A stretch of DNA of 47,596 nucleotides, from contig JACIWI010000112.1 of assembly GCA_014361055.1 (NCBI GenBank), positions 1 to 47,596 on the forward strand, in the 5' to 3' direction. The notes beneath the pieces are model-generated. The model was not told the origin of the DNA. It made no database searches and saw only the letters and a list, made by a program, of their open reading frames with translations. This stretch comes from Candidatus Bipolaricaulota bacterium. Lineage in GTDB: Bacteria; Bipolaricaulota; Bipolaricaulia; Bipolaricaulales; Bipolaricaulaceae. This document shows positions 11,195 to 44,229 of the stretch, one piece after another (position 1 is the first letter of the stretch; each line of letters opens with the position of its first letter). A program made the position numbers and the translations under genes.

Positions 11195-11200
11195 TATCAT
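11195..11200 (+). promoter_or_regulatory. -10 element, leaderless start of ROK gene
   Basis: TATCAT lies 9 bases before the ATG at 11210, with no Shine-Dalgarno sequence in between. The expected transcription start, about 7 bases after the hexamer, falls within a few bases of the start codon. No convincing -35 was seen. Confidence 0.45.
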
Positions 11201-11209
11201 CTCCTTCTC

Positions 11210-12094
11210 ATGGAAGGGACCGTTGGGGTGGATATTGGAGGTACGCGGACCCGGGTGGGGGCGGTGGCCAGGGGGAGGATCCTCGCCCGCCGGGCGTTCC
11301 CCACCCAGGGAATTGCCGAGGTCAAGGACGCGATCCGCGCGGTGATGGCGGAAGTAGGGTGGGCCCGGCCGGGGGCGATTGGGGTGGGAGCCCCTGCCCC
11401 GATGGACATGCGGGGCGGCAAGATCCTGGGGTGCCCGAACCTCCCTCACTGGAACGGGGTGGAGGTGACGCGGGAGCTCGGGGATGCGTTTGCCTGCCCC
11501 GTCTACCTCGCTAACGACGCCACCTCCGCCGCCATCGGCGAGCTCGTGTTCGGCCACCGTGCCCACGATTTCGTGTACATCACATGGTCCACCGGGATCG
11601 GCGGTGGGGTCGTGTCGGGAGGGCGGGTGGCCTGGGGGGCCACCGGACAGGCTGGCGAGGTAGGGCATATGGTGCTCGATCCCGACGGCCCCCCGTGCCG
11701 GTGCGGAAAGCGTGGGTGCCTGGAGGCGATCGCCGCGGGGGTGGGGATCGCCCGGGCCGCTCGGGAGAGGCTCGGGGAGAGGCTCTCCGCTCGGGAGGTG
11801 GTGGACCGGGCCCGTCGCGGGGATGCGGGGGCCTTGGCCATCGTGGATGAGGCCTGCCGGGCGATGAGCCAGGGGATCGCCATCCTGTGGGAGGTGCTGG
11901 AACCCGAGTTGATCGTGCTCGGTGGGGGCCTCACCGGGTCGTGGGACTTCCTCGGCCCCAAGGTCCTCGCCGCGGCCCACGGGCTCGCCCGGACCCCCGT
12001 CCGGGTGGAGCTGACCCCGCTTGGGGACGACGTGGGCCTCCTCGGCGCCGCCGCCCTCCCCGATCACTTCCCCGAGGAGTGGCGTTCCGGTTAG
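11210..12094 (+). CDS. ROK family sugar kinase (glucokinase-like)
   Basis: This 294-residue cytoplasmic kinase probably phosphorylates glucose or a related hexose. The ATP site is VGVDIGGTRTRVGAV (D8, G10, G11); the sugar-binding and catalytic segment is YLANDATSAAIGEL; the ROK zinc motif CRCGKRGCLE gives ligands C163, C165 and C170; and ITWSTGIGGG is present. It has no N-terminal helix-turn-helix, so it is not a ROK repressor. The gene lies 43 bases after the KDG kinase but appears to have its own leaderless promoter. It is the last gene of the sugar module. Glucose, mannose, N-acetylmannosamine and others are possible substrates. Confidence 0.88.
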   Translation: MEGTVGVDIGGTRTRVGAVARGRILARRAFPTQGIAEVKDAIRAVMAEVGWARPGAIGVGAPAPMDMRGGKILGCPNLPHWNGVEVTRELGDAFACPVYLANDATSAAIGELVFGHRAHDFVYITWSTGIGGGVVSGGRVAWGATGQAGEVGHMVLDPDGPPCRCGKRGCLEAIAAGVGIARAARERLGERLSAREVVDRARRGDAGALAIVDEACRAMSQGIAILWEVLEPELIVLGGGLTGSWDFLGPKVLAAAHGLARTPVRVELTPLGDDVGLLGAAALPDHFPEEWRSG

Positions 12095-12146
12095 CAGCCT
12101 GTACGGCTATCGCCACCCATGGGGGCCCCAGGCTTTTCCCTGGACG

Positions 12147-12962
12147 TTACTCCCCCAGCACCAGCTTGACCTCCACCGTGGTCTTTTCCCAGCCCGCTTG
12201 GGAGAAGGTCGCGGTGACCGAGGCTCGCCAATCCCCCGCGCTGGCAGCAACGCTGACGCTCCCCGACCACTTCCCCAGGGCGCGCACCGTCAGCCGGCCC
12301 TGAATGCGCAGGGATTCCTCGCCCATGCCCACGGCGATCGACTGCAACGCAACAGGGAATAGGGAGAGGTAGCTCATGGCGGACAGGATCCCATCCTCGC
12401 AGCCCAGCTCCAAGCTCGCTGCGGTGGAGGAAATGGCCACGGTGGCCCAGCTCGTGCCACTCAGGCCGAACTGGAGCTCGCCCCGAGGGAGGTCACCCGG
12501 CCAAGTGGTACTGAGGTTCGCCTCGAACCAGAAAGGAACGCGATCGATTCGGGCGGAGGCCCAGGCGGCGGCGGTGGGAAACCGCACGCCGAGCACATCG
12601 ATCCAGGCCATCTTCGTCCCGGCCACGCTGGAGAGTGTTCCGAACTCGGCATCGGTCGCTCCCTTCCAGCCGGCGGTGACCGCCAGGTCCAACCGGCCGG
12701 TGGGGAGGAGGATCGTCTCCGCGTTCAGGGACCATCCGTCCCATGTGGAGCCAGCACCGAGCGCAATCCGACGAGGGCGCAACGGGAGGAGGCCCATCTC
12801 CGCTCGTCCGGACAGGGTCAACCCCCCAACCTCGCTGGACAGGGAGAGCCATCCGATCCCGGTGGACACGCTTTCGCCGGTTTCGAATCGGGTCCCGATC
12901 TCTCCGGCTAACGCCAGCCCGGCTCCGACGGCAAGCGCTACCAGGAGCCATTTCCCGTTCAT
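12147..12962 (-). CDS. Secreted beta-rich protein of unknown function
   Basis: This 271-residue protein has a clear Sec signal peptide (MNGKWLLVALAVGAGLALAG). The rest alternates polar and hydrophobic residues with many short strands (for example GRLTVRALGKWSGSVSVAAS) and no cysteine motif, heme site or recognised enzyme motif. It ends VEVKLVLGE. The pattern would suit an outer-membrane or surface beta structure. Its ATG overlaps the TGA of trmB, so it is translated with that gene. I recognise no family. Confidence 0.7.
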   Translation of the reverse strand: MNGKWLLVALAVGAGLALAGEIGTRFETGESVSTGIGWLSLSSEVGGLTLSGRAEMGLLPLRPRRIALGAGSTWDGWSLNAETILLPTGRLDLAVTAGWKGATDAEFGTLSSVAGTKMAWIDVLGVRFPTAAAWASARIDRVPFWFEANLSTTWPGDLPRGELQFGLSGTSWATVAISSTAASLELGCEDGILSAMSYLSLFPVALQSIAVGMGEESLRIQGRLTVRALGKWSGSVSVAASAGDWRASVTATFSQAGWEKTTVEVKLVLGE

Positions 12963-13897
12963 CTCCCCTCCAACGCGGCGGCCACCGCGGCCACCGACCG
13001 CTTCACCGCCGGGGTGCGGAACGGGACCGTGGCCCCGTCCAGCTTCACCATCGCCCCGGCTTGATCCGGCACCACCGCGAGGAAGTAGTGCTGCTGGAAG
13101 TCATCATCGGTGGCGAACGCCCGAAGGAGCGCGATTTTCCCGTCCGGGGCGAAGAACGCCTCCTTGACCGCAAACGCCCCTCCCGGCCAGGCCTCCCTGA
13201 GGCCCACCGCCCGCGCCACCGTTTCCGGCGTAACCGGTACCGCGATCCGCACGTGGGGCATCGTTCCCTCCGCGATCCGCTGTATAGCTCCCTTGACCTT
13301 TCGTTCGGCCACCACCTGCCAGATGGCCCGGCCCTGGCCGCGCCACTTGCGTTCATACCGCGTCCCCGGGCCCTCTTCCACCAAGGGTTGAGGGCCCGTC
13401 ACCCGAAATGGGTTTGCCTCGGCCAAGCACGCCGCGGCGTCCTCGGCATACCATAGCACGTCGGTGGTGAGGGTGAACAGCCCATCCGGGGCGAGGACCG
13501 CGGCCAGGGTCTGCCCGAATCCAGGTCCCACCAGCCGTCGTTCGGCATGGCGGGCCTTGGGCCAGGGACAGGGGAAGTGCACGTAAACACGGGCCACGCT
13601 TTCGTCGGGGAAAAGCTCCCGCAGGGCGAACTGGCCGTCCACCAGCGCCAGGCGGACATTCCCTGCGCCCCAGTGGGCCAACTTCCGTCCCGCCTTGGTG
13701 ATGCAGGTGAGGCTCGTTTCGAACCCGACCCAGTTCCAACCAGGGTGCTCCCGGGCGGCCCAGGAGAGGAACTCCCCGCTGCCGAACCCGATCTCGACCG
13801 CAAGCGGGGCCGAGCGGCCGAACACGGCGTCCCAGTCCGCGGGGAGCGCCTCCCACCGTTCCGGACGGACGAGGTACCTGTTGAGCTCGGAGCCCAT
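12959..13897 (-). CDS. trmB: tRNA (guanine-N7)-methyltransferase
   Basis: This 312-residue SAM-dependent enzyme makes m7G46 in tRNA. The Rossmann SAM site is AVEIGFGSGEFLSWAA (about residues 34-49). VHFPCPWPKARHAERR (about residues 106-121) is the TrmB catalytic signature with the conserved Pro-Lys-Arg-His run. LFTLTTDVLWY and the GPGTRYERKW stretch, which closes the usual core, follow. About 100 further residues form a C-terminal extension of the kind known from Thermotoga and Aquifex TrmB. The gene lacks a ribosome site and has TAAGCT 6 bases before the ATG. Confidence 0.9.
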   Translation of the reverse strand: MGSELNRYLVRPERWEALPADWDAVFGRSAPLAVEIGFGSGEFLSWAAREHPGWNWVGFETSLTCITKAGRKLAHWGAGNVRLALVDGQFALRELFPDESVARVYVHFPCPWPKARHAERRLVGPGFGQTLAAVLAPDGLFTLTTDVLWYAEDAAACLAEANPFRVTGPQPLVEEGPGTRYERKWRGQGRAIWQVVAERKVKGAIQRIAEGTMPHVRIAVPVTPETVARAVGLREAWPGGAFAVKEAFFAPDGKIALLRAFATDDDFQQHYFLAVVPDQAGAMVKLDGATVPFRTPAVKRSVAAVAAALEGR

Positions 13898-13903: not shown

Positions 13904-13909
13904 AGCTTA
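13904..13909 (-). promoter_or_regulatory. Candidate -10 element upstream of trmB
   Basis: On the minus strand TAAGCT ends 6 bases before the trmB ATG. A TTGCCC at 13930-13935 would leave a 20-base spacer, longer than ideal. No ribosome site is present, in line with a leaderless mRNA. Confidence 0.35.
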
Positions 13910-15698: not shown

Positions 15699-16289
15699 AT
15701 GCGGACGGGGGTGCGCGTTGTGCTGGCGGTGGGGGTTGTGCTTTCCACGGGTGCGCTGAGCGGTTGTTTCCTCAATGTGTTTCAGACGGCCCAGATCCTC
15801 CGGCATGGGGATGTGGCGTTCACGGTGGGGATGGCCGTGCTGGACCTGGCGCCAGCGGTTCTCACCCCCCAGGGGAGGTTGGCGGTGGGCCTGTCCGATG
15901 GGGTGGAGTTCGGGGTCCAGGCCGGGGGGATGGTCAACCCCGGCACCGGAGGGGTGGGGTTCCTCGGGGCAATAGCCGAGCTGAAGCTGTCGCTGGTGGA
16001 CCAGCCGGATGCGCTGGCCCTGGCCGTGGGGGTTGGGGGTGGGTGGAGCGTGATCATGGGCGGATGGGGGCTTCAGGCCTCCCTCTACCTTGACAGCAAC
16101 CTGTGGTTCCTCCCCCTGTACGTGGCGTACCGGCCGATCCTCCCCTTGGGGGCCGAGGAGTTTGCGCCCTTTCACCAGTTGGCAGGAGGCCTGTGCCTGG
16201 ACATTTCCGACAAGGCCCGGCTTCTCCTCGAGGCCGACTTCCTCGGGGGGCTTTGGAGCCCCGGGCTCGCCCTGGAAGTCCAGTTTTAA
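15699..16289 (+). CDS. Lipoprotein, possible outer-membrane barrel
   Basis: This 196-residue protein has a lipoprotein signal: a positively charged start, a hydrophobic stretch and the lipobox LSGC with the acylated cysteine near residue 23. The mature part is rich in short amphipathic strands and glycine (for example GVEFGVQAGGM and ALAVGVGGGWSVIMGGWG) and ends in phenylalanine (LEVQF), as many outer-membrane barrels do. TAGGGGG at 15685-15691 supports ATG 15699 over the one at 15681. The 3' end overlaps the end of the convergent xanthine dehydrogenase gene by 4 bases. No family is recognised. Confidence 0.7.
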   Translation: MRTGVRVVLAVGVVLSTGALSGCFLNVFQTAQILRHGDVAFTVGMAVLDLAPAVLTPQGRLAVGLSDGVEFGVQAGGMVNPGTGGVGFLGAIAELKLSLVDQPDALALAVGVGGGWSVIMGGWGLQASLYLDSNLWFLPLYVAYRPILPLGAEEFAPFHQLAGGLCLDISDKARLLLEADFLGGLWSPGLALEVQF

Positions 16290-18616
16290 CCCGTCCTACT
16301 GCGCAAGGCCGAGAGGACCCGCTCCGGGGTGAACGGGGCCCGGGTGAGGCGGATCCCCACCGCGTCGTAGATGGCGTTGGAGATGGCCGGCAAGGGCCCG
16401 TTGATCCCGACCTCGGCGATCGACTTCGCCCCAAACGGCCCGGTGGGCTCCTCGCTCGGGACCAGGATCGCCTCCACCTCGGGCACGTCCAGGGCCGAGG
16501 GGATCTTGTAGTCGAAGAAGCTTGGGTTTACGCACCGGCCGCGCCCGGAGAACAGCATCTCCTCGTAGAGGGCATGGCCGATCCCCTGGACGACAGCCCC
16601 CTCGAGCTGCCCCTCGGCCTGCTTGGGGTGGATGGCGACCCCGCAGTCGGCCACGGCCACGAACCGCTCCACCCGCACGAGCCCGGTCTCCGTGTCCACC
16701 GCCACCTCACAGAAGAACGCGGCGAACGGGGGCGGGGACTCAGGCGCGACGCAGGATGCGGTGGCCGCGATCTGGTGCTGGTCCACCACGTACGTCGCGC
16801 GGTGCCCCACGTCGGCCAGGGTCACCGCCCGCCCACTGCGCACGCTGCGCACGGCCCCTTGGGAGAGCTCCAGGTCCTCCGGAGCTTCCTCCAGCGCCGC
16901 TGCGGCCACGTCCAGGATCTGGCGCCGCACATCCTCCGCCGCCTTGAGGACCGCGAGCCCCGACACGTAGGTCGTGCTGGAGGCGTACGCCCCCACGTCG
17001 AACGGGGTGAAATCGGTGTCCGAGGAGTAGACAAGTACCTTGTCCACCGACACGCCCAGCGCCTCGGCGGCGATCTGGGCGAGCACGGTGTCGGAGCCGG
17101 TGCCGAGGTCGGTGGCCCCCACGAGGAGGCGGAACGAGCCGTCCTCGTTCATCACAATCGTCGCCGCGCCCATGTCGATCCCGGTGATCCCCGACCCCTG
17201 CATCGCGCACGCCATCCCCACCCCGTACGCCCACGGACCCTCGCGGCGTCGGCGGCCGCGGTTCCTCTTCCACCCGATGCGCTCGGCCCCGATCCGCAGG
17301 CACTCGGGAAGGGCACACGACCGTACGATCTGGGCCTTCCCTTCCCTCCCCTCCCCGATCTTCTCGAAGATGGGGGAGGTCTCCCCGACCCGGATGTGGT
17401 TCCGCTGGCGCAGCTCCAGGGGGTCCAGACCGAGCTTCTCGGCCAGGATGTCCATCGCCACCTCGAGGGCGAAGTAGCCTTGGGTGGCCCCGTACCCGCG
17501 GTACGCCCCGGCCACAGGGAGGTTGGTGTACACCGCCTTCCCATGGAACCGGAGGTGGCGGGCCTTGTTGTAGAGGGGCAGGGTCTTGGAGCCGACGTTT
17601 GAGAGCACGGTCAGGGAATGGGTCCCGTAGGCGCCGGTGTTGGACAGGGCTTCCATGTCGATGGCGCGAAGGGTCCCGTCCCGGCCAGCCCCCAGCTTCA
17701 CCGTGACCCGCATCGGGTGCCGGGTGCGGGAGGCGACGAATTCCTCCTCCCGGGTGTAGGCGATCCGCACCGGCCGCCCGGTGCGCAGGGCAAGGGCCCC
17801 GGCCACCGGCTCGAGGATGATCTCCTGCTTGGCCCCGAACCCCCCGCCGATCCGGGGTTTCACCACCCGGATCCTGGACATCGGGAGCGCGAGCACCCGG
17901 GCCACGATCCGCCGCACATGGAACGGAACTTGGGTCGAGGTACGGATGACGAGCCGGCCGTCCTCGTCGAAGTAGGCGATCACGCAGTGGGGTTCGATCG
18001 GGGTGTGCTGGAGGTAGGGGATCTCGCAGGTCGCTTCCGCCGTCACCGGGGACTCGGCCAGGGCCCGGTCCACGTCCCCGACCGGGATGTCCACCGCGGC
18101 GGCGATGTTGCGCTGGGCGTCGTAGATCCCCTCGGCATCGGGCTCGTCGTGGATGACCGGGGCCCCGGGGGCGAGGGCTTCGTCCACCGATAGGACCGCC
18201 GGCAGGACCTTGTACTCGACCCTGATCTTCCGCAGGGCCTCGTCGGCCGCCTCCTCGGAGGTCGCCGCCACCGCCGCCACCCGGTCCCCCACGTACCGGA
18301 CCTTCCGATCGAACAGGACCGTGTCGTACGGGGAGGGCTCCGGCCACCCCTGGCCGGCGGTGGTGTGGGGGATCCGCGGAACGTTCCCGAAGTGGAGGAT
18401 GCACGCCACCCCGGGGATAGCCTCTGCCGCGGAGGTGTCGATGGCCTCGATCATGGCGTGGGCGTGGGGGGAATGGAGGATCTTCCCCACCAAAGCCCCC
18501 GGCACGTCCATGTCCAGCGTGAACAGGGGCTTCCCACACACCAGGGCTGGCCCGTCCACCTTGTGCACATTCTGGCCCACCACGTCCCTGGCCTTCGCCG
18601 CCACGCTCACCGCCAT
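16286..18616 (-). CDS. xdhA: Xanthine dehydrogenase, molybdenum-binding subunit
   Basis: This 776-residue catalytic subunit binds the molybdopterin cofactor and hydroxylates purines or another N-heterocycle. The Q-loop is IGGGFGAKQ. The substrate-site arginine lies in AYRGYGATQGY (the usual AFRGFG). The MCD-binding GTGSDTVLAQIAAEALG and GPFGAKSIAEVG, with catalytic Glu E735, are present. The length is usual for the separate large subunit of trimeric enzymes. The ATG at 18616 overlaps the 2Fe-2S subunit gene by 10 bases. Gene order on the minus strand is FAD, 2Fe-2S, Mo. Xanthine is the likely substrate because of the nucleoside-type transporter beside it, but aldehyde or CO-dehydrogenase-like specificities share the fold. 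Confidence 0.9.
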   Translation of the reverse strand: MAVSVAAKARDVVGQNVHKVDGPALVCGKPLFTLDMDVPGALVGKILHSPHAHAMIEAIDTSAAEAIPGVACILHFGNVPRIPHTTAGQGWPEPSPYDTVLFDRKVRYVGDRVAAVAATSEEAADEALRKIRVEYKVLPAVLSVDEALAPGAPVIHDEPDAEGIYDAQRNIAAAVDIPVGDVDRALAESPVTAEATCEIPYLQHTPIEPHCVIAYFDEDGRLVIRTSTQVPFHVRRIVARVLALPMSRIRVVKPRIGGGFGAKQEIILEPVAGALALRTGRPVRIAYTREEEFVASRTRHPMRVTVKLGAGRDGTLRAIDMEALSNTGAYGTHSLTVLSNVGSKTLPLYNKARHLRFHGKAVYTNLPVAGAYRGYGATQGYFALEVAMDILAEKLGLDPLELRQRNHIRVGETSPIFEKIGEGREGKAQIVRSCALPECLRIGAERIGWKRNRGRRRREGPWAYGVGMACAMQGSGITGIDMGAATIVMNEDGSFRLLVGATDLGTGSDTVLAQIAAEALGVSVDKVLVYSSDTDFTPFDVGAYASSTTYVSGLAVLKAAEDVRRQILDVAAAALEEAPEDLELSQGAVRSVRSGRAVTLADVGHRATYVVDQHQIAATASCVAPESPPPFAAFFCEVAVDTETGLVRVERFVAVADCGVAIHPKQAEGQLEGAVVQGIGHALYEEMLFSGRGRCVNPSFFDYKIPSALDVPEVEAILVPSEEPTGPFGAKSIAEVGINGPLPAISNAIYDAVGIRLTRAPFTPERVLSALRSRTG

Positions 18617-19080
18617 CGCCCCTCCCGTTTCCACTCCGCCGCGAGCATCACCGCGTCCACGATCTTCCGGTACCCGGTGCACCGACACAGGTTCCCCACG
18701 ATCGCCGTCCGGACTTCCTCCGGGGTGGGATCCGGGTGGCGGGAGAGGAGCTCGTAGGCGACGAGGATCATCCCCGGGGTACAGAACCCGCATTGGACCG
18801 CCCCGGCATCGAGGAACGCCTCCTGAAGGGGATGAGGATCGTTCACCGTGCCTAAGCCCTCCAGGGTGATGATCCGCTTCCCCTGGGCCCGGGCGGCGAA
18901 GGCGATGCACGACCGCACCGCCCGTCCGTCCACGAGCACCGTGCACGCCCCGCAATCTCCGGTGCCGCACCCCTCCTTCACCGACTTCATCCCCAGCCGG
19001 CGGAGGAGCTGGAGCAGGGACTCCCCCGGCTCGACCTCCGGGTACTGGGGAACCCCGTTCAACTCAAAGTAGATCTTCAT
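18607..19080 (-). CDS. xdhC: Xanthine dehydrogenase, 2Fe-2S subunit
   Basis: This 157-residue subunit carries two 2Fe-2S clusters that pass electrons from molybdenum to FAD. The plant-ferredoxin-type cluster uses the cysteines of GCGTGDCGACTVLVDG (about residues 37-52). The second, four-helix cluster uses QCGFCTPGM (about 97-105) and NLCRCTGY (about 132-139). All eight ligands are present. Its ATG overlaps the stop of the FAD subunit gene (ATGA), and the molybdenum subunit starts inside its 3' end, so the three are translated as a coupled set. Confidence 0.93.
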   Translation of the reverse strand: MKIYFELNGVPQYPEVEPGESLLQLLRRLGMKSVKEGCGTGDCGACTVLVDGRAVRSCIAFAARAQGKRIITLEGLGTVNDPHPLQEAFLDAGAVQCGFCTPGMILVAYELLSRHPDPTPEEVRTAIVGNLCRCTGYRKIVDAVMLAAEWKREGRWR

Positions 19081-19934
19081 CGCGCGGCCCTCTCTGCGGC
19101 CCGGGCCACGGCGCGACGCACGACGACCCCCGCCACGCTCCGGCGCCAGGCGGCGCTCGCGCGGCGGTCGTCCCCCACCTTGGCCCGGCGCTCCACCTCC
19201 TCCTGGACCTGGCGCCAAAGGGTGTCGGAGGGGGCCTCCCCCTGGAGGGCCTCCTCGAGCCAGGTGAGGCGCTCGGCCCGGGCCGGGGTTGCCCCCACCG
19301 CCACCCGTGCCCACGCGATCTTTCCGTCCTGAATCCCTACCCCGCACGCGGCGTTGAGGAGGGCGATGTCCCCGGCGGAGCGGGAAAGCTTCTCGAACGC
19401 AAACGCCCCATTCCAGGGCGGAAGGGCGATCTCGGTCAACACCGCCCGGCGGAACACGGCCCGGAACGGCTGGCGGTAGAGCTCCTCTACCAGGGCGTGC
19501 TCCTCCCGCTCACCCTCCCAGCGCGCCTCGGCCCCCAGGGCGACGAGGGCGGTGGGGATGTCCGCCCACGGATGGGCGGAAACCACGGCCCCGCCCAAGG
19601 TGGCCATGTTCCGCAGCGGGGGAACCGCCACCCGACACAGCACCTCGACCAGGGCACCGTGCAGGTACCGCCGCGCCGCTGGGTGTTCCAGGATCTCGGT
19701 GAGGGTGGTCGTGGTCCCGATGCGCAGCCGCCCGTCCTCCTCCCGGACGTAGGAAAGGCCGATCCCCATGATGTCGATCAGCCCCTCGAGGTCGGTACGG
19801 GCGGAGCGGCCGAGATCCACCCCCCCGGCGAGGAGCGCTCCCCGGCCGTGGTAGGCGTCGAGGAGGGACAGCGCTTCCTCTACGTCCCGGGCCCAATGGA
19901 AACGACGGACCCCCGTCAGGCGCACGTCGGTCAC
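19077..19934 (-). CDS. xdhB: Xanthine dehydrogenase, FAD-binding subunit
   Basis: This 285-residue subunit takes electrons from the 2Fe-2S subunit and reduces NAD or ferredoxin. It has the pyrophosphate-binding loop ALLAGGVDLG (about residues 32-41), the second FAD motif NMATLGGAVVSAHPWAD (about residues 108-124), and the CO_deh_flav C-terminal domain. The usual AGGTDL has V for T. The GTG start at 19934 has no ribosome site but sits 7 bases after TATACT, so the operon is probably leaderless. It is the first gene of the trimeric XDH operon and diverges from the BMP transporter. Confidence 0.9.
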   Translation of the reverse strand: MTDVRLTGVRRFHWARDVEEALSLLDAYHGRGALLAGGVDLGRSARTDLEGLIDIMGIGLSYVREEDGRLRIGTTTTLTEILEHPAARRYLHGALVEVLCRVAVPPLRNMATLGGAVVSAHPWADIPTALVALGAEARWEGEREEHALVEELYRQPFRAVFRRAVLTEIALPPWNGAFAFEKLSRSAGDIALLNAACGVGIQDGKIAWARVAVGATPARAERLTWLEEALQGEAPSDTLWRQVQEEVERRAKVGDDRRASAAWRRSVAGVVVRRAVARAAERAAR

Positions 19935-19941
19935 CTGATGG

Positions 19942-19971
19942 AGTATAGCGCCCGGGCCACCTGTAAGGCAA
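19942..19971 (-). promoter_or_regulatory. Sigma-70 promoter of XDH operon (leaderless)
   Basis: On the minus strand: -35 TTGCCT (19971-19966), an 18-base spacer, -10 TATACT (19947-19942). The GTG start lies 7 bases downstream, about where transcription should begin. The -35 is one base away from the -35 of the divergent promoter. Confidence 0.75.
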
Positions 19972-19972
19972 C

Positions 19973-20002
19973 TTGACCGTTGTGGTGGCTCAACGGTATA
20001 CT
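19973..20002 (+). promoter_or_regulatory. Sigma-70 promoter of BMP transporter operon (leaderless)
   Basis: -35 TTGACC (19973-19978), an 18-base spacer, -10 TATACT (19997-20002). The ATG at 20012 is 9 bases further on with no ribosome site. The two divergent promoters would compete for polymerase, or one factor bound at the centre could control both. Confidence 0.78.
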
Positions 20003-20011
20003 GGCCGGGCC

Positions 20012-21580
20012 ATGGGTGGGTGTGCTGGAGTGGGTGTCCCAGGGCAAGGCCGTTCACCGCCCGTACCTACCGTTCTGCTCCAGGACATCACCAAGGCTTT
20101 CCCCGGGGTGCTGGCCAACGACCGGGTGACGTTGGAGCTCCGCGCGGGCGAGGTCCATGCCCTCCTCGGGGAGAACGGGGCCGGCAAGACTACGCTCATG
20201 AACATCCTCTACGGCCTCTACCGGCCGGACTCGGGCGAGATCCTCATCCGCGGCGTTCCCACTCAGATCCATTCTCCCCGCGATGCCATCGCCCACGGGA
20301 TCGGCATGGTCCACCAGCACTTCAAGCTCGTCTTCCCCCACACCGTGGCCGAGAACGTCGCCCTCGGCCTCAAGAGGACCCCGTTCTGGGCCCCGATCCG
20401 GGTCGTGGAGCGAAAACTGCGGGAACTGTCCGAACGCTATGGGCTCCCCGTGGACCCCGGAAGCCGGGTGTGGGAGCTCTCGGCCGGGGAGCAGCAGCGG
20501 GTGGAGATCCTCAAGGCCCTGTATCGGGGGGCAGAGATCCTCATCCTGGACGAGCCGACGAGCGTCCTCACCCCGCAGGAGGCGACCGAGCTGTTCAAGG
20601 TCCTCCTGCGGATGAAGGCCGAAGGGCACGTGGTGGTGTTCATCACGCACAAGCTCGGGGAGGTCATGGAGGTGGCGGACCGGGTGACGGTGATGCGCCG
20701 GGGGCGGGCGGTGGGGACGGTGGCGGTGGCGGGCACCGACAAGGCCGAGCTGGCGCGGATGATGGTCGGCCGCGAGGTCGTGTTCCGGCTTTCCAAGGGG
20801 AAGTGCATGCCCGGGGAGGAGGCGCTCCTCGTCCAGGACCTGTGGGCGAGGAACGACCGGGGGCTCCACGCGGTGCGGGGCGTGTCGCTCCGGGTGTGCC
20901 GGGGGGAGATCTTGGGGATCGCCGGCGTGGCCGGGAACGGCCAACGAGAGCTGGTGGAGACGATCACCGGCCTTCGGCGGGCGGAGCGGGGTCGGGTGGT
21001 GGTCCTGGGCCGGGACCTCACCAACCGTTCGGCGCGGGCGGTGGCCGACGTCGGGGTGGCCCACATCCCCGAGGAGCGATTGCGGATGGGGATCGTCCCG
21101 GGGATGGCGGTGGAGGATAACCTGATCCTCAAGCGGCATCACCGGCCGCCGTTCTCATGGGGGCCGTTCCTCCGGTTGCGCGAGGTGCGGCGGTTCGCCC
21201 AAGAGTCCATCGTGGGGTACGACATTATGACCCCCGCGGCGCGCGCCCCGGCCAAGCTCCTCTCGGGGGGGAACATCCAGAAGCTGATCCTGGCCCGGGA
21301 GCTCTCCGGAGAGCCTGGGCTGATCGTGGCCGCCCACCCCACCTACGGCCTCGACGTGGGGGCCACGGAACAGGTGCGGCGCTACCTCCTCGGGGGGCGG
21401 GAGAAGGGGGTGGGGGTGCTCCTCGTCTCGGAGGACCTGGAGGAGATCATGGAGCTTTCGGACCGGATCGCGGTCATGTTCCGGGGGGAGATCATGGGCG
21501 TGGTTCCGGCGGCGGAGGCGAATCTCGAGGAGATCGGGCTGATGATGGCCGGCGAGCGCCGGCTGGCACCGCAGCCATGA
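20012..21580 (+). CDS. Nucleoside-type ABC transporter, double ATPase subunit
   Basis: This 522-residue cytoplasmic protein has two ABC ATPase domains in tandem, as in the YufO/NupO and sugar MglA-type importers. Domain 1 has Walker A GENGAGKTT, signature LSAGEQQRVE and Walker B ILILDEPTSVLTPQE. Domain 2 has a degenerate Walker A (GVAGNGQREL lacks GKT), signature LSGGNIQK and an altered Walker B (LIVAAHPTYGLDVGA), so only domain 1 should hydrolyse ATP efficiently. The first ~25 residues are extra and glycine-rich. Start 20012 was chosen for its leaderless promoter; a TTG at 19973 lies inside the -35 element. ATGA overlap with the first permease. Confidence 0.9.
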   Translation: MGGCAGVGVPGQGRSPPVPTVLLQDITKAFPGVLANDRVTLELRAGEVHALLGENGAGKTTLMNILYGLYRPDSGEILIRGVPTQIHSPRDAIAHGIGMVHQHFKLVFPHTVAENVALGLKRTPFWAPIRVVERKLRELSERYGLPVDPGSRVWELSAGEQQRVEILKALYRGAEILILDEPTSVLTPQEATELFKVLLRMKAEGHVVVFITHKLGEVMEVADRVTVMRRGRAVGTVAVAGTDKAELARMMVGREVVFRLSKGKCMPGEEALLVQDLWARNDRGLHAVRGVSLRVCRGEILGIAGVAGNGQRELVETITGLRRAERGRVVVLGRDLTNRSARAVADVGVAHIPEERLRMGIVPGMAVEDNLILKRHHRPPFSWGPFLRLREVRRFAQESIVGYDIMTPAARAPAKLLSGGNIQKLILARELSGEPGLIVAAHPTYGLDVGATEQVRRYLLGGREKGVGVLLVSEDLEEIMELSDRIAVMFRGEIMGVVPAAEANLEEIGLMMAGERRLAPQP

Positions 21581-23588: not shown

Positions 23589-23659
23589 CGGGAGGTGAGA
23601 GCAGGCGGTAGATGGCTCGGGGTGCGATCGATGATCCATTCTCGCAAGGAGGTGTGCGC

Positions 23660-24882: not shown

Positions 24883-24911
24883 TTGGGGGCCCCGGACTAA
24901 ACCCGTAAACT
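24883..24911 (+). promoter_or_regulatory. Promoter of ssnA (leaderless)
   Basis: -35 TTGGGG (24883-24888), a 17-base spacer, -10 TAAACT (24906-24911). The ATG at 24918 is 6 bases downstream with no ribosome site. Confidence 0.6.
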
Positions 24912-24917
24912 ACGGGC

Positions 24918-26237
24918 ATGGCGTTGATCATCGAGCGGGCGAGGATCGCGGACTTCTTCGGGACCTTCCACGAGTCGGGGTACGTGCTGATCGACGGCGG
25001 GCGGATCGAGGTGGTGGGCCCAGACCCGGCCCCGGCCGCTCCCGGGGCCCAGCGGATCGACGCCGGCGGTCGCCTCCTCACCCCCGGGCTCGTCAACGCC
25101 CACGCTCACCTGTACTCGTCCCTTGCCCGGGGGATGCCCCTCCCCGGGTTTGCCCCGAAGGGCTTCCGCCAAATCCTCGAGCAGCTCTGGTGGCGGGTGG
25201 ATCGGGCCCTCGACCTGGACGGGGTGTACCACTCCGCCCTCGTCGGGGCGCTCCAGCAGCTCAAGGCCGGGGTCACGGCGTTCTTCGACCATCACGCTTC
25301 CCCGACGGCGATCGCTGGGTCGCTGTCCCAGATCCGGCGGGCGGTGGCGGAGGTGGGCCTGCGCGCGGACCTCTGCTACGAGGTCACCGACCGCGGGGGG
25401 CCGGCGGAGCGGGACGCCGGGATCGCCGAGAACGTGCGGTTCGCCCAAGAAGAAGCCGGGGGCGGCCGGTTTGCCGCCCACATGGGCCTTCACGCCTCGT
25501 TTACCCTGTCCGACGAGACCCTCGCCAAGGTGGTTTCTGCTGCCGAGCCGCAGAAGCTCCCGTTCCACCTCCACCTCGCCGAGGGGAAAGAGGACCCGGT
25601 GGACGCCCTCCAGAAGTACGGGATGCGCACCGCGGAGCGGCTGGACCAATTCGGGATCTTCACCCCGGGGACCCTCCTCGCCCACGGGATCCAGCTCGCC
25701 CAGGCCGAGCTCGACCTCCTCGCTGGGCGGTCGGCGAGCGTAATCCACAACCCCCGGTCGAACATGAACAACGCCGTGGGCGTGGCCCAGGTGGCGGCGA
25801 TGCTCGCCCGCGGGATCAATGTGGGGATCGGTACGGACGGGTTCGGATGCGACATGGTCGGCGAGCTCCTCACCGCCCGCCTCCTCGCCCACCACACAAG
25901 CGGCGATCCCACCGTGCTCGGGGATCCGGCCCTGCTCTCCTTGATCCGTCACAACTATGCCCTTGCGGAAGCGTCGTTTGGCGTGCCCATGGGGCGGCTC
26001 GCCGCCGGGTGTGCGGCCGACCTCGTGGTGTGGAACTACGAGCCGCCAACCCCGCTTGTGCCGGAGAACCTCCTTGCGCACCTCCTGTTCGCCTCCGTCT
26101 CCGAGGGGCTCCGGCCCCGGGTGGTGATCGTGGCCGGGGAGGTCCGGTTCGCGGACGGCAAGGTTCAGGGCGTGGACGAACGGGCGGCCCTCGCTCGGGC
26201 CCGCGAGGTCGCCCAGAAGCTGTGGGCCAGGTTGTAG
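24918..26237 (+). CDS. ssnA: SsnA-like amidohydrolase
   Basis: This 439-residue metal-dependent hydrolase of the amidohydrolase/TRZ family resembles SsnA, found in purine-degradation clusters with YgfK and XDH. Metal ligands are visible: NAHAHLY near residue 60 for the HxH pair, HLHLAEG near 218 for the third His, LLAHGIQL near 254, and GTDGFG near 300 for the Asp. Family members deaminate or hydrolyse purine-like rings (guanine deaminase and related), but SsnA itself has no settled reaction. The gene appears to have its own leaderless promoter and is followed by a repeat-rich spacer and ygfK. Confidence 0.87.
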   Translation: MALIIERARIADFFGTFHESGYVLIDGGRIEVVGPDPAPAAPGAQRIDAGGRLLTPGLVNAHAHLYSSLARGMPLPGFAPKGFRQILEQLWWRVDRALDLDGVYHSALVGALQQLKAGVTAFFDHHASPTAIAGSLSQIRRAVAEVGLRADLCYEVTDRGGPAERDAGIAENVRFAQEEAGGGRFAAHMGLHASFTLSDETLAKVVSAAEPQKLPFHLHLAEGKEDPVDALQKYGMRTAERLDQFGIFTPGTLLAHGIQLAQAELDLLAGRSASVIHNPRSNMNNAVGVAQVAAMLARGINVGIGTDGFGCDMVGELLTARLLAHHTSGDPTVLGDPALLSLIRHNYALAEASFGVPMGRLAAGCAADLVVWNYEPPTPLVPENLLAHLLFASVSEGLRPRVVIVAGEVRFADGKVQGVDERAALARAREVAQKLWARL

Positions 26238-31159: not shown

Positions 31160-31623
31160 GGATCCAGTTTCGACTGAACGGGCGTCCGGTGGCGGTGGAC
31201 GTGCCGCCGGGGCGCCGCCTCCTCGACCTCCTGCGCGAGGACCTGGGCCTGATCGGGACCAAGGAGGGATGCGGGGAGGGGGAATGCGGGGCGTGCACGG
31301 TGGTGGTGGACGGGAAGCCCCGCCTGGCCTGCCTCACCGCCGCCGTCCAGGTGGAGGGGAAGGACGTCCTGACCATTGAGGGCTTGAGCGAGGCCGGCCA
31401 GCTGGATCCTCTGCAGGAGGCGTTCATCGAGACGGCAGGCGTGCAATGCGGGTTCTGCACGCCGGGTCTCGTCATGGCCGCGTACGCCCTCCTCCGGGAG
31501 AACCCACGCCCGACGCGGGATGAGGTGCGGGCGTATCTTTCCGGCAACCTATGTCGGTGCACCGGGTACGCGCAGGTGGTGGAGGCGGTGCTGCGGGCGG
31601 CGGAGAAGGCCTGCCCCCGGTGA
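31156..31623 (+). CDS. Xanthine dehydrogenase-type 2Fe-2S subunit (second copy)
   Basis: This 155-residue subunit has all eight cluster cysteines: GCGEGECGACTVVVDG (about residues 37-52), then QCGFCTPGL and NLCRCTGY. It overlaps the PLP enzyme stop (ATGA) and the MocA-like start (GTGA), so it is embedded in a translationally coupled run. It differs clearly from the first copy at 18607. No molybdenum subunit is next to it, so it must either pair with the XdhA at 16286, with a gene outside the window, or with an enzyme such as YgfK. Confidence 0.9.
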   Translation: MRIQFRLNGRPVAVDVPPGRRLLDLLREDLGLIGTKEGCGEGECGACTVVVDGKPRLACLTAAVQVEGKDVLTIEGLSEAGQLDPLQEAFIETAGVQCGFCTPGLVMAAYALLRENPRPTRDEVRAYLSGNLCRCTGYAQVVEAVLRAAEKACPR

Positions 31624-32246: not shown

Positions 32247-32313
32247 CGTCGCAGCTTGTCTGCGACGGCGTTTTTCCCTTGGACCGGCGTCGGGGGCAAG
32301 TCCCGCCGCTACG
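32210..32313. repeat. Cluster of palindromic repeats (CGTAGCGTCG family)
   Basis: Three units: GCGGGCATAAAGCCCGACGC (32210-32229, ending CTACG), CGTAGCGTCGCAGCTTG then TCTGCGACG (32242-32267), and CGTCGGGGGCAAGTCCCGCC (32288-32307, ending GCTACG). They share the CGTAGC edges with the units at 26271-26445. The stop codon of the MocA-like gene lies inside the first unit. Confidence 0.75.
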
Positions 32314-32372
32314 AAACCGCGGGGGTCGTCGGACCTTGGGTCTGACGTCAAGCCGTTGCGAGGTGATGTGGG

Positions 32373-33227: not shown

Positions 33228-33236
33228 GAGGTGGAG

Positions 33237-34340: not shown

Positions 34341-34454
34341 GCCGCCCGGCCTGCGACTGGCATGGGTCAGGGGATCGGGGTATCCTGAGGTATCTTCCCC
34401 CAAGATGTTGTCCTGGTGAGGGCGTTTTTGGGGGCCAGCCGTTCGAGGCAGAGA

Positions 34455-35012
34455 ATGCTGAACACGATCGAGCGGATGATCATTTCGGTCGACGAGATCG
34501 GCCAGCGGGTGCGGGAGCTCGGGGCCCAGATCTCCGCGGACTACCGCGCCGGGGCCGGGCGCGATCCCCACCGGCGGCCGCTCTTGGTGGTGGGCCTCCT
34601 CAAGGGGGCGATGCCGTTCATGGCCGACCTCATCCGGGCCATGGACATCCCCCTCGAGTACGATTTCATGGCCGTGTCCAGTTACCGCAACGGCACCAGC
34701 CCCGGGGAGGTACGGATCCTCAAAGACCTCGACTGCGCCATTGGCCGCCGCGATCTCCTCATCGTCGAGGACATCGTGGACACCGGCCGGACCCTCCACC
34801 GCATCCTGAAGGGCCTCTCCGCCCGGGAGCCGGCCACGCTCCGGGTGTGCACGCTCCTGGACAAGCCGCATCGGCGGGAGGTGGAGGTGCCGGTGGACTA
34901 CGTGGGGTTCGTGCTGCCGGAGAACCTGTTCGTGGTGGGGTATGGGCTCGACTACGCCGAGCTCTACCGGAACCTGCCGTTCATCGGCGTGCTCAAAAGG
35001 CGTGAGGCGTGA
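34455..35012 (+). CDS. hpt: Hypoxanthine phosphoribosyltransferase
   Basis: This 185-residue salvage enzyme joins PRPP to hypoxanthine or guanine. The PRPP motif is LLIVEDIVDTGRTL (about residues 99-112). LLVVGLLKGAMPFMADL is the flexible-loop region near residue 39, and VDYVGFVLPENLFVVGYGLDYAE is the base-contact hood near the C-terminus. ATG 34455 gives the usual N-terminus; a GTG at 34416 would add 13 residues. Salvage of hypoxanthine fits the nucleoside uptake and purine breakdown genes upstream. Confidence 0.92.
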   Translation: MLNTIERMIISVDEIGQRVRELGAQISADYRAGAGRDPHRRPLLVVGLLKGAMPFMADLIRAMDIPLEYDFMAVSSYRNGTSPGEVRILKDLDCAIGRRDLLIVEDIVDTGRTLHRILKGLSAREPATLRVCTLLDKPHRREVEVPVDYVGFVLPENLFVVGYGLDYAELYRNLPFIGVLKRREA

Positions 35013-36753: not shown

Positions 36754-38004
36754 CTACGGAACGAGGTTGAGGAACTCATCCACCAACTGGGGATCGAGCT
36801 CCTTCCCTTTCATCTCCTGGAGGATCCGGCGGGCTTCCTGTTTGGAGTAGGCCTTCCGGTAGGGGCGGTTGGAGGTGAGGGCGCTCCACACATCGGCCAC
36901 GGCGAGGATCCGCGCCCCGAGCGGGATCTTGTTGCCGGCCAGGCCATCCGGGTACCCAGTTCCGTCCCAGTGTTCGTGCTCGTGCTTGACGATGTCCAGG
37001 ACCCCCTCGTAGATCTCCAACCCCCGAAGGAGCTCGGCGCTGGTCACCGGATGCCGCGTCATGATCGCCCATTCCTCGGGGGAGAGCTTGGCCGGTTTGA
37101 GAAGGATGCGGTCAGGGACAGCGATCTTGCCCAGGTCATGGACCCGCGCCGCGGCGGCGATCTGTTCCACTTCCTCCTCCGGGAGGCGCAGGGCCCGGGC
37201 GAGTTGCTCGGCGAGCTTGGCCACCTTGGTGGAGTGCTCTCCGGTGTAGGGGTCGCGCTCCCCGACGACACGGGCGATGCGCTCAAACGCCTGTTGGGCC
37301 TGTTGGCGCAACCGGGTATAGCCACGGATGGACGCCTGCACCACCGTGAGCGGGCTGAGCATGAGCAGGATGTACCATGGAGAAAGGGTGTACAGAACCG
37401 CAATAAGGATTCCGAGGGTTCCGATGGATAATAATTGAGTGAGCAAATGACGCAAGTAGAACTTGAGCTGATAGACAAAAGAGATCTTTTCAGTAAGGTA
37501 GACAATGAGGGCCACCGCCGACTTATTTACAATTGTGTACGTAATGAAAGCGAAGGATAGAGGGACAAAGTGCCAAATCGTTGTGTATGGTGGGGGAGTT
37601 CCGCCGATGGCTTTAAACACAAGGGCCGTCGTGGTAACCGAGACCACGAGCTGGCCCACGTTGAACCCGATATAGGCTGTGAAGAGGAACTTGTTCTTGC
37701 TCAGGACTTTCCAGCGAAGGAGGAGCTCGGCCGGCAAGGTGGCGAGAAGCACGGTGAGGATCCCAAGCGGGGCGCCTCCGATGTAGACCGCGGCGATGCA
37801 TACCGCCATTGCCGCGGAGGTGCTCCTCTTGGCGATGACCTCCACCTCGAAGATCTCGCACAGAAAATCGATGCCGGCAAGGAGAAGCCAGGCGAGGATG
37901 AACTGAGAGCTGAACTCGGCCTGGGGTACGAACAGGACGATACAAGCGAGTGCAGCCACCGCCACCGCGGCGATGTAAACCCGAGCCCTCGTAGGTAAGC
38001 GCAT
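36754..38004 (-). CDS. Membrane HD-GYP domain phosphodiesterase
   Basis: This 416-residue protein has an N-terminal sensor of about six to seven membrane segments (residues ~8-220) and a C-terminal HD-GYP domain that should degrade cyclic di-GMP. The catalytic residues are present: ARVHDLGKIAVPDRI for the HD pair, HEHWDGTGYPDGL for the GYP motif, and ADVWSALTSNRPYRKA. GERDPYTGEHSTKVAKLAEQLA opens the domain. No cytoplasmic PAS or GAF domain is seen, so signals probably enter from the membrane. There is no ribosome site; TAAGCT lies 8 bases before the ATG, just downstream of the terminator of the small membrane gene. The segment near 37380-37620 is AT-richer than its surroundings. Confidence 0.88.
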   Translation of the reverse strand: MRLPTRARVYIAAVAVAALACIVLFVPQAEFSSQFILAWLLLAGIDFLCEIFEVEVIAKRSTSAAMAVCIAAVYIGGAPLGILTVLLATLPAELLLRWKVLSKNKFLFTAYIGFNVGQLVVSVTTTALVFKAIGGTPPPYTTIWHFVPLSFAFITYTIVNKSAVALIVYLTEKISFVYQLKFYLRHLLTQLLSIGTLGILIAVLYTLSPWYILLMLSPLTVVQASIRGYTRLRQQAQQAFERIARVVGERDPYTGEHSTKVAKLAEQLARALRLPEEEVEQIAAAARVHDLGKIAVPDRILLKPAKLSPEEWAIMTRHPVTSAELLRGLEIYEGVLDIVKHEHEHWDGTGYPDGLAGNKIPLGARILAVADVWSALTSNRPYRKAYSKQEARRILQEMKGKELDPQLVDEFLNLVP

Positions 38005-38021
38005 TGTCAGTAAGCTTAGCG

Positions 38022-38461: not shown

Positions 38462-40213
38462 TCACGCGCCCGCGATCAACGGACCCACGACGAGCACCGT
38501 GAGCGCGATGTCCACCCCCACGAACAGGGCCCACGCCGGGAGCAACCCTGGCTCCTGGGACCGCCGCCAGTACAGGGCCAACACCCCACCGTCCACCAGC
38601 AGAAGCCCGAACGGCAGCGACAAGGCCAGGGACCGGGCGAGCCCGGACGAGAACCAGGCAGCAAAAGGCATCGTGGGCACCAACCCCGCGGTGAACAGGA
38701 TCTTGAGCAGCACATACGGCGAAAGCCCCAGCACCAAGAGGATGCGGGCGGTCCAGGTGTGCAGGTCTCCCTCTCCCCCGAACACGTAGTGCCCCACCAC
38801 CAGGAGCAATCCGGGGACGGCGGCCATCAGGAACAACGGGATCATGGTCAGGCCGCTCACGAACCCGGATAGCACCGTGAGGAACATGTGCAGCACGTCG
38901 GCCATCTCCACCCGGTTCAGCACGGCCCGTTCGGCAGGGGCCGTGGTCGCATAGTAGATGCGGTAAGCGCCATAGCCGTGCATGTCCGACCACACCGCGT
39001 GCCAGCCGTCGGGGGATGGACGCAGTTGGGGCGAGATGGACCACCCGGTGGTGTTGGCGAGGGGACACCAACCCACGATCGCCCCGTCTTTCAACGCCAC
39101 CACCGCAGGTTGAACCTCGGCCCTCCGGCCATCGCTGACCTTGACCCCTACCGCTACCAGGGCGTGGTCCCGCTGTCCAGGAAACGCCACCGGGGTATGG
39201 GTATCGGTGCCGAGGCGTGCTCCCTGCGGCGGCAACGGGGCAAGGGGGAGGCCTTCCCGAGGGCAGGTGTACTCTTCGGGGAATTCCCCGGGAAGGCTCA
39301 ACAGGAACGGTTCAGCCTGGTCCGGGTCAGCCAAGGGAGCGGCCACCACGTGCGTCTCGGCCGTCCCCTGCTTGAGCCCGCTGCGGTACTCCACCGAGAC
39401 CAGGGCGTAGAGCCATCGCGTGTCCAACGCCACCGTCGGGGTGGAGAACACCGCCCCCAGGCTCACGTTGACCCCCCACAGGAGACAGGGTGGCGTCGCC
39501 AGGGCGGCGTCGGCGGATAGCTTGGCGTACATGAGCTCCCGTCGCTCGTAGCCGGGTATATCCAGCCAGATTACGTGTGTCCAGCCGTCTCCGTCGACGG
39601 CCAGTGCCGGCGCTCCGCCTCGCTCTGCGAGGTGCAGCGGGGGGCCTAGAGGGATGCCCTCCTCGCCCAACGCCTGGGCCCAGACCCCTGCGTCCCCAGC
39701 GTTCCACACGACCACGAAGCCGGTGGGGATGGTCCCCACGTCGTACGCGTCCACACTTTGCTCGGCGGGGGAAACGAGGAGGGCACCCCCGGTTGGGGCG
39801 CCGTGGGCGTCGAGGGGTTGCACGAAGATCCGGTACCGACCAGGAGCGGTGCGGGCCAGGAAGAACAGAGAGAAGCCGTCTGGGGCAGCGAACAGCTGCG
39901 GGGCATGGGGGTAATCGAGGGCCAGTGGGATCGAAGTCGGTGGGGTGGCATGCCCCATCGGGTCGAACCGGCTCAAGAACAAGGTGGTATTGCCGCCAGC
40001 CTGACCGGTCCACACCAGCCACCGGCCGGTGGGGGCGACGGCTAGGGATGGGGCCTCCCCGATCTCGGTCTCCGCCACCGGGAGTCCCCGGCTCCACCCG
40101 GAGCGGATGGGGTCGCTCTTTCGCTGGGCACACCCGCTCAAGGCCGCGAGAGCACAAGCAAGAAAGAGGAAAACCATCCCCTGAGCCCATCGCCTGCTGA
40201 AGCACCTGTTCAT
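38462..40213 (-). CDS. Lipoprotein with propeller-like domain and polytopic membrane tail
   Basis: This 583-residue protein begins with a lipoprotein signal peptide (MNRCFSRRWAQGMVFLF...ALSGC, acylated Cys near residue 28). Residues ~45-440 have repeated segments with Trp, Gly and Asp in a beta-propeller-like rhythm (GRWLVWTG, GFVVVWNAG, GWTHVIWLDI, GWHAVWSDM). The last ~150 residues form at least four hydrophobic segments beginning MADVLHMFLTVLSGFVSG. A lipid anchor at one end and a polytopic domain at the other is unusual. ATG 40213 follows TATGAT by 7 bases without a ribosome site. It lies just past the opp terminator. No family is recognised. Confidence 0.75.
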   Translation of the reverse strand: MNRCFSRRWAQGMVFLFLACALAALSGCAQRKSDPIRSGWSRGLPVAETEIGEAPSLAVAPTGRWLVWTGQAGGNTTLFLSRFDPMGHATPPTSIPLALDYPHAPQLFAAPDGFSLFFLARTAPGRYRIFVQPLDAHGAPTGGALLVSPAEQSVDAYDVGTIPTGFVVVWNAGDAGVWAQALGEEGIPLGPPLHLAERGGAPALAVDGDGWTHVIWLDIPGYERRELMYAKLSADAALATPPCLLWGVNVSLGAVFSTPTVALDTRWLYALVSVEYRSGLKQGTAETHVVAAPLADPDQAEPFLLSLPGEFPEEYTCPREGLPLAPLPPQGARLGTDTHTPVAFPGQRDHALVAVGVKVSDGRRAEVQPAVVALKDGAIVGWCPLANTTGWSISPQLRPSPDGWHAVWSDMHGYGAYRIYYATTAPAERAVLNRVEMADVLHMFLTVLSGFVSGLTMIPLFLMAAVPGLLLVVGHYVFGGEGDLHTWTARILLVLGLSPYVLLKILFTAGLVPTMPFAAWFSSGLARSLALSLPFGLLLVDGGVLALYWRRSQEPGLLPAWALFVGVDIALTVLVVGPLIAGA

Positions 40214-40220: not shown

Positions 40221-40226
40221 ATCATA
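40221..40226 (-). promoter_or_regulatory. -10 element, leaderless start of lipoprotein gene
   Basis: Minus strand TATGAT ends 7 bases before the ATG at 40213. The -35 region is weak. No Shine-Dalgarno sequence is present. Confidence 0.5.
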
Positions 40227-43208: not shown

Positions 43209-43210
43209 CC

Positions 43211-44188
43211 TCAGTCGTACCGAATGCGGGGATCGAGCCAAGCATAGCTGATGTCCACGAGCAGGTTCGCGAACACCAAAAGCAGGGAGTACATCAGAGT
43301 GGCTCCCATCACCAGCGGATAATCCCGGTTGGTCACCGAGGTCACGAAGTACTTGCCCATCCCGGGGATGCCGAAGATCTGCTCCACCACCATGCTCCCG
43401 GTGACCACCGCTGCGAACATCGGCCCGAGCACGGTCGCCACCGGGATGAGGCTGTTTCGGAGGCCGTGGAGGATGATCACCCGCCGCGAATGGAGCCCCT
43501 TGGCGTAGGCCGTGCGTATGTAGTCCTCCCGGATCACCTGGAGGAGGCTCGCCCGGGTCAGGCGGGCGATGGACGCAGAATAGGCGGTGCCGAGGGTGAA
43601 CGCAGGCAGGATGGCATGGAGCCAGAATTTAGCCGATGTGATCGGGGGGAAGAACCCCAAGTGGAGCTGCGTGTAGTCCGTCCCCCACCGGGCGGCAGGG
43701 AACCACCCAAGCTTAAGGGCAAAAATCCAGATCAACAGTGGGCCAAGCACCATGTTCGGGATGGATACCCCGAGGATGGCCACGAACGTTGCCCCGTAGT
43801 CCACAACCGTGTTCTGTTTGACGGCGGCGATGGTCCCCATGGGGATGCCGATGCACAGCGCGAGGAGCAGGGCCAGGAGGCCGAGCTGGAAGGAGATGGG
43901 GAACGTCCGCTTCAGGATGTCGTTCACCGTTTGGGCGCGGGTGGTGTAGGACGGGCCGAGGTCCAACCGGAGCGCGTCCCAGATCCACTTCCCGAGCTGT
44001 ACATACACCGGCTTGTCGAGCTGGTACTTCCGCTCCAGATTCTTGCGGATGCTTTCCGGGAGCTGCTTTTCGCCGCGGAAGTCGAACGGCCCTCCCGGGA
44101 TGGCATGGGCCAGAATGAAGGTCGCGGTCATGATGGCCAAAAGGACGGGGATCGTCCACAGCAGCCGCCGCACGATGTACTGAACCAT
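43211..44188 (-). CDS. oppB: Oligopeptide ABC transporter permease (OppB/DppB)
   Basis: This 325-residue permease begins MVQYIVRRLLWTIPVLLAIM, the standard OppB opening. It shows FILAHAIPGGPFDF, the EAA loop YIRTAYAKGLHSRRVIILHG (about residues 223-242) and the C-terminal NLLVDISYAWLDPRIRY. It is the first gene of the operon, driven by a near-consensus promoter with only 12 bases between -10 and ATG and no ribosome site. No ATPase genes (oppD/oppF) follow; those must be elsewhere. Confidence 0.93.
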   Translation of the reverse strand: MVQYIVRRLLWTIPVLLAIMTATFILAHAIPGGPFDFRGEKQLPESIRKNLERKYQLDKPVYVQLGKWIWDALRLDLGPSYTTRAQTVNDILKRTFPISFQLGLLALLLALCIGIPMGTIAAVKQNTVVDYGATFVAILGVSIPNMVLGPLLIWIFALKLGWFPAARWGTDYTQLHLGFFPPITSAKFWLHAILPAFTLGTAYSASIARLTRASLLQVIREDYIRTAYAKGLHSRRVIILHGLRNSLIPVATVLGPMFAAVVTGSMVVEQIFGIPGMGKYFVTSVTNRDYPLVMGATLMYSLLLVFANLLVDISYAWLDPRIRYD

Positions 44189-44200
44189 ACCGCAACGCGG

Positions 44201-44229
44201 TTTATACCTCCGCTGGGCTGGCCTGTCAA
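44201..44229 (-). promoter_or_regulatory. Near-consensus promoter of the opp operon
   Basis: Minus strand: TTGACA (44229-44224), a 17-base spacer, TATAAA (44206-44201). The oppB ATG is 12 bases downstream, so the leader is about 5 bases or none. Confidence 0.85.

Follow-up and report, generated by a model that had tools for sequence, protein, structure and literature searches.

Promoter hexamers next to start codons suggest leaderless operon starts in one family of Bipolaricaulota

Introduction

Where does transcription begin when a promoter hexamer lies only a few bases before the start codon and no Shine-Dalgarno (SD) site is present? The question is raised by a contig stretch of 47,596 nucleotides (JACIWI010000112.1, assembly GCA_014361055.1; hereafter the window) from a Candidatus Bipolaricaulota bacterium. 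The original prediction, made from the letters alone, listed eight such gene starts on both strands and suggested that the lineage starts many operons with leaderless mRNAs, as in Deinococcus-Thermus and actinobacteria.

In a survey of complete genomes across bacteria, leaderless genes of Deinococcota make up about 30% of ORFs, occur in every species tested and mostly lack a -35 element (Zhong 2025, PMC12340547); another estimate puts the share at about 40% of genes in Deinococcota and about 20% in Actinobacteria (Zheng 2011, PMC3160421). Our literature search found no link between leaderless genes and Bipolaricaulota, with the qualification that the supplementary tables of the Zhong survey may include members of the phylum. 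The kind of arrangement is already known, and its presence in Bipolaricaulota appears to be unreported.

Methods

The host of the window is a metagenome-assembled genome (MAG) of 1.56 Mb in 150 contigs with a listed contamination of 3.7%, of which ~799 kb, about half, was sampled; the window is its contig 16. The YchF protein it encodes shares 72% and 61% identity with two Candidatus Bipolaricaulota entries and no more than about 54% with other organisms among the matches listed, which places the host in this phylum. Its family, labelled f1, comprises 40 genomes, and eight other families of the same class add 60 more. Within f1, the closed genomes G004 and G005 were sampled at 200 kb each. Five other families (f4, f5, f6, f7 and f9) contributed 100-200 kb apiece, i.e. 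small samples of 37-96 first genes each, with f2, f3 and f8 left out. We note that L117 (G000 contig 34) and the G000 contigs under 5 kb fall below the rest of the MAG in GC/GC3 and coding density, possibly reflecting contamination or mobile DNA.

Genes were called with a simple, custom-written caller in which only the coding score and the start codon decide where a gene begins, upstream signals being ignored (blind starts); when alternative starts within 5 nats of coding score were admitted, the background rose and the TANNNT excess was diluted. An SD-like site is one of the 4-mers GGAG, GAGG, AGGA or AAGG at -16 to -3, and a full promoter is TTG, 16-18 bp and TANNNT. A promoter matrix was trained on G004 and G005 only, with the window genome excluded. 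Searches for relatives of genes beyond trmB, as in the ssnA and HD-GYP alignments, used coordinates and identity only.

As a positive control, Thermus/Deinococcus plasmid stretches gave a TANNNT peak of the same kind by the same method (11 vs 2.2 expected); a de novo motif search on this small sample was underpowered, though the direct TANNNT count was positive there. One small E. coli stretch, the negative control, gave no TANNNT signal.

Results

Eight gene starts in the window

All eight hexamers were located in the window sequence at their predicted positions. The promoter elements and genes are as follows, with P values giving the promoter score against each start's own shuffled null.

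11195..11200, + strand: -10 box TATCAT, 9 bases before the ROK start at 11210; P 0.0013
11210..12094, + strand: ROK-family sugar kinase (PF00480, E 2e-59), predicted leaderless or near-leaderless start, also chosen blind
13904..13909, - strand: -10 box TAAGCT, 6 bases before trmB; similar hexamer in 25 of 30 f1 orthologues
12959..13897, - strand: trmB, tRNA (guanosine(46)-N7)-methyltransferase (TIGR00091, above cut-off), predicted leaderless
19966..19971, - strand: -35 box TTGCCT of the XDH FAD subunit gene, 18 bp from the -10
19942..19947, - strand: -10 box TATACT, 7 bases before the XDH FAD subunit gene; P <0.0001
19077..19934, - strand: molybdopterin (xanthine) dehydrogenase (XDH) FAD subunit (PF00941 and PF03450), predicted leaderless at GTG
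19973..19978, + strand: -35 box TTGACC of the ABC ATPase gene, 18 bp from the -10, back to back with the XDH -35
19997..20002, + strand: -10 box TATACT, 9 bases before the ABC ATPase start at 20012; P <0.0001
20012..21580, + strand: sugar/BMP-type ABC transporter ATPase (NF047930, residues 20-514)
24883..24888, + strand: -35 box TTGGGG of ssnA, 17 bp from the -10
24906..24911, + strand: -10 box TAAACT, 6 bases before ssnA; P 0.007
24918..26237, + strand: ssnA aminohydrolase (NF005540, above cut-off), predicted leaderless
38013..38018, - strand: -10 box TAAGCT, 8 bases before the HD-GYP gene, without a good -35; weak, P 0.022
36754..38004, - strand: HD-GYP (HD_5) phosphodiesterase-like protein (PF13487), predicted leaderless, least certain of the seven
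40221..40226, - strand: extended -10 box TATGAT (TG one base ahead), 7 bases before the lipoprotein gene; P <0.0001
38462..40213, - strand: lipoprotein, family unassigned, predicted leaderless; n-region and LSGC lipobox from start 40213
44224..44229, - strand: -35 box TTGACA of oppB, 17 bp from the -10
44201..44206, - strand: -10 box TATAAA, 12 bases before oppB; fails the 6-9 model
43211..44188, - strand: oppB-type ABC permease (NF045471, PF00528)

An SD-like 4-mer at -16 to -3 is absent from all eight genes, and four (XDH, ATPase, ssnA and oppB) carry a TTG-type -35 at 17-18 bp, in agreement with the original prediction on both points. The reading of all eight as leaderless held with one correction: seven hexamers have the leaderless-type spacing of 6-9 and oppB, at 12, does not. 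Scored with the G004/G005 matrix, these seven beat their own shuffled null (P 0.022 to <0.0001), trmB and HD-GYP being the weakest individual scores (P about 0.02), whereas oppB fails because 12 bases lie outside the 6-9 range of the model. Its perfect TTGACA-17-TATAAA at that distance would be expected to yield a leader of about 5 nt, and we consider oppB more likely leadered than leaderless. Seven positives among ~25 first genes of the window correspond to P about 3e-7 against shuffles and 3e-4 against position-shifted real sequence, for starts that were partly reader-chosen. With blind starts, the hexamer falls at 6-9 in four of the eight (ROK, trmB, XDH and ssnA).

In the divergent gap at 19935-20011, 77 bp hold two complete back-to-back promoters, one leading to the predicted leaderless start of the XDH FAD subunit gene and the other to that of the ABC ATPase gene. 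The ATPase start at 20012 is placed mainly by its promoter and lies about 17 residues ahead of the point where the family profile begins. No Pfam or NCBIfam match was found for the lipoprotein at 38462..40213.

Two further features of the window are recorded here. Positions 1-10100 have 57.7% GC vs 67.8% in 10101-47596, with low coding scores in the first 10 kb; no match to a 402-aa protein from the low-GC part (4600-5808) was found in G026, G004 or G005, and the gene just past the boundary (10180-11166) has a 96% identical counterpart in G026. The segment may be an acquired island or an assembly join. At 16286-35012 lies a cluster like E. coli xdhA-ygfT, with molybdopterin dehydrogenase subunits, ssnA, ygfK (TIGR03315, above cut-off), a threonine-synthase-like PALP enzyme and a MocA-like protein, adjoined by the BMP/sugar-type ABC transporter; it probably serves anaerobic purine use in a Bipolaricaulota.

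Hexamer position across operon-first and internal genes

A TANNNT hexamer is a loose pattern, expected occasionally near starts when a few short upstream stretches are inspected, and chance could account for such a list where some starts were chosen by the reader and where trmB and HD-GYP alone reach only P about 0.02. Against this stands the enrichment at blind starts. TANNNT occurs at 5-9 in 38 of the 278 operon-first genes sampled from the window genome, vs 16.4 expected from the local upstream rate (P 4e-6), and before first genes in G004 (21 vs 4.1 expected, P 3e-9) and G005 (20 vs 4.2, P 2e-8). The genome-wide tabulation of hexamer distances suggested by the original prediction, carried out over about half of the genome, thus gave strong enrichment at 6-9 and none at 10-14, and the claim was not refuted. 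Taken together with the sharp position at 6-9, the -35 at 17 bp and the conservation between orthologues described below, this refutes chance at the family level, and we regard it as a very remote explanation.

Operon-internal genes behave differently. As had been proposed from the window, they use normal SD sites: SD-like sites precede 64% of them in the window genome vs 3% with TANNNT at 5-9, and across this genome, G004 and G005 the figures are 55-64% and 2-4%. The two signals occur together in only 4 of the 278 first genes. A de novo motif search over all first and internal genes returned AGGAGG, mostly 4-8 bases before the start; restricted to SD-less first genes of f1, it returned T-A-t-a-a-T at 6-9 bases.

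When the f1 sites are aligned on the hexamer, a T-T-G begins 23 bases further up and a G stands two bases ahead of the hexamer. TTG at 16-18 bp is present in 31 of 76 sites (~41%), vs about 1.5% per three positions at other spacings, the rest having no or a weak -35.

The distance of full promoters to the start codon is informative in a further respect. Counts per 5-base bin in f1 run 1, 30, 2, 10, 12, 7, 11, and so on, i.e. 30 at spacing 5-9 and 2 at 10-14, with 5.2 per bin beyond; the corresponding figure in shuffled sequence is 0.4 per bin, and only 2 of 382 internal genes have a full promoter at 5-9. Such a profile would correspond to a leaderless class, a gap where leaders are too short to hold an SD site, and then ordinary leadered promoters. 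This two-class picture is the strongest sequence argument for transcription starting at the codon. Alternatively, the promoters could be real and leave very short leaders of about 3-8 nt that are translated without SD pairing, as the 5-nt leader fitting oppB and the spacing of 8-9 in nearly half of the f1 sites would allow. However, a continuum of short leaders would fill the trough at 10-14, and 6 is the commonest single spacing; we therefore judge short leaders throughout the class to be very unlikely.

With the G004/G005-trained model, 11-12% of first genes in the window genome score positive, vs 1-2.5% of shuffled and about 5% of position-shifted sequences. On blind starts, the predicted leaderless share of first genes is about 12% for the window genome, compared with 18-23% for G004/G005; only the 12% is independent of training, since the model was trained on the other two genomes. 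As blind starts are often wrong, these shares may be underestimates. TTG start codons are fewer in leaderless than in other genes (1 of 69 vs 9 of 158), a difference that is not significant.

Conservation between orthologues

The start codons themselves may be misplaced, with real promoters serving translation from a downstream codon that has an SD site, and for the ABC ATPase, HD-GYP and lipoprotein genes the start favored by coding score indeed lies further in. Evidence against this comes from trmB, for which 25 of 30 f1 orthologues, down to 54-58% identity, keep TATCCT, TAAGCT, TATGCT or TAATCT at 6-7 bases (background 1.3%). Their flanks are unrelated and the start (ATG/GTG) shifts, in many two codons further in, yet the distance from hexamer to codon is kept. 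Moreover, relatives of ssnA align from residue 1-4 and homologues of the HD-GYP protein from residue 2-3, and the lipoprotein start is backed by a charged n-region ahead of the lipobox. Misplacement is, in our assessment, a highly improbable account of the seven starts.

Among first-gene orthologue pairs with a homologous start, 13 of 54 share the hexamer vs 4.4 expected if independent, compared to 0 of 47 internal-gene pairs. One of the 13 probably reflects a falsely called start, in a HypF-like coding match; the predicted leaderless share in the orthologue set is about 22% after removal of this doubtful pair. A conserved case outside the strict first-gene set is ssnA, whose orthologue in G005 has TAGACT at 6 bases.

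A contrasting case is sucD:

44260..44288, + strand: sucD promoter TTGCCA-17-TATCCT, 31 bases before sucD (44320)

Here an SD-like GAGGTGA is found upstream of sucD, and relatives with the same start have TATCCT at 6 bases (L024) or TATACT at 9 bases (L025). This suggests that the start mode can switch, with sucD leadered in the window and leaderless-looking in relatives. We also note that ychF lies directly downstream of sucD (45186-46274). Work cited in PMC12641178 reportedly links ychF to an effect on leaderless mRNA translation; the gene is near universal, so its position beside sucD is probably coincidence.

Distribution within the phylum

No clear peak at 5-9 was found in the f9, f7, f4, f6 and f5 samples by TANNNT count, motif search or full promoters, the absence being clearest in G072 (f9) and G060 (f7) and less certain in f4, f5 and f6. 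The de novo search on SD-less first genes of these families returned nothing positioned like the f1 hexamer, and among their 338 pooled genes 12 have a full promoter at 5-9, a density similar to that at neighboring spacings. When promoters at 5-9 are set against those at 10-39, f1 has a different ratio from the other families (P 0.0035; G004 and G005 alone, P 3e-5). With both the -35 and the -10 strictly required, this contrast comes from G004/G005, as the window genome taken by itself (12 at 5-9, mean bin 3.8) is not significantly different (P 0.35). Low-level leaderless use in the other families, sampled by 37-96 first genes each, is possible.

The anti-SD GGATCACCTCCTTTCT is intact and normal, and an S1-like protein, considered as a machinery correlate, is present in all 100 genomes searched without family contrast; hence no machinery marker separates the families.

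Discussion

Based on hexamer position, -35 spacing, lack of SD sites, conservation, restriction to operon-first genes and an intact anti-SD, all observed in the sequences, we propose that in ~12-22% of f1 operon-first genes sigma-70-type promoters very probably set the transcription start on the start codon itself or no more than about 3 nt from it. RNA polymerase with the housekeeping sigma factor would read TANNNT, often with TTG 16-18 bp further up and a G two bases before the hexamer. In bacterial promoters, initiation falls 7-10 bp downstream of the -10. At the spacings seen here this would coincide with the A or G of ATG/GTG, and the resulting mRNA would have no 5' leader and no SD site. 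Three points of this picture are inferred, namely the precise transcription start, the lack of a leader and the translation route; leaderless mRNA would presumably be translated from its 5'-terminal start codon by 70S-type initiation, a route discussed for other organisms in PMC12340547. Where the spacing is 8-9, a leader of 1-3 nt could remain, and extra upstream promoters could also give these genes transcripts with leaders. Ordinary GGAGG sites, with the anti-SD intact, serve the downstream genes and many of the other first genes.

The view that the lineage starts many operons leaderless is supported but needs narrowing. The enrichment and conservation argue for leaderless starts, but the predicted share is ~12-22% of first genes, the SD-led class is the larger of those detected, and a clear peak was seen in only one of the sampled families. 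Whether sister families kept SD-led starts while one Bipolaricaulota family went over to leaderless mRNA for much of its operon starts is, in our estimate, evenly balanced.

The proposed likeness to Deinococcus-Thermus holds in that TANNNT near the start, lack of SD sites and conservation between orthologues are shared. Deinococcota, as described in PMC3160421 and PMC12340547, likewise have TANNNT about 6-7 bases before the start beside GGAG sites on other genes, in high-GC genomes and with the hexamer kept between orthologues. They differ in the extent of leaderless genes (~30% of ORFs vs ~12-22% of first genes in f1), in mostly lacking a -35 (vs TTG at 16-18 bp in about 40% of f1 sites) and in showing the mode in every species tested, whereas in Bipolaricaulota the peak is seen in only one of the sampled families. 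In Actinobacteria, likewise high in GC, the TANNNT signal lies about 10 bp upstream and SD-led genes occur alongside (PMC3160421); they are an unrelated phylum, and this likeness is drawn from the published description.

In conclusion, these results would add a deep, uncultured phylum to the few in which leaderless starts are frequent. In f1 genomes, a sizeable share of starts will be called wrongly by programs that rely on SD sites, and a model with the promoter next to the start is advised. The contrast between families allows gain or loss of the leaderless mode to be tested in closely related genomes. Should the shift have arisen independently of that in Deinococcota, it would provide a within-phylum pair for identifying what drives or permits it, including genes such as sucD that appear to switch.
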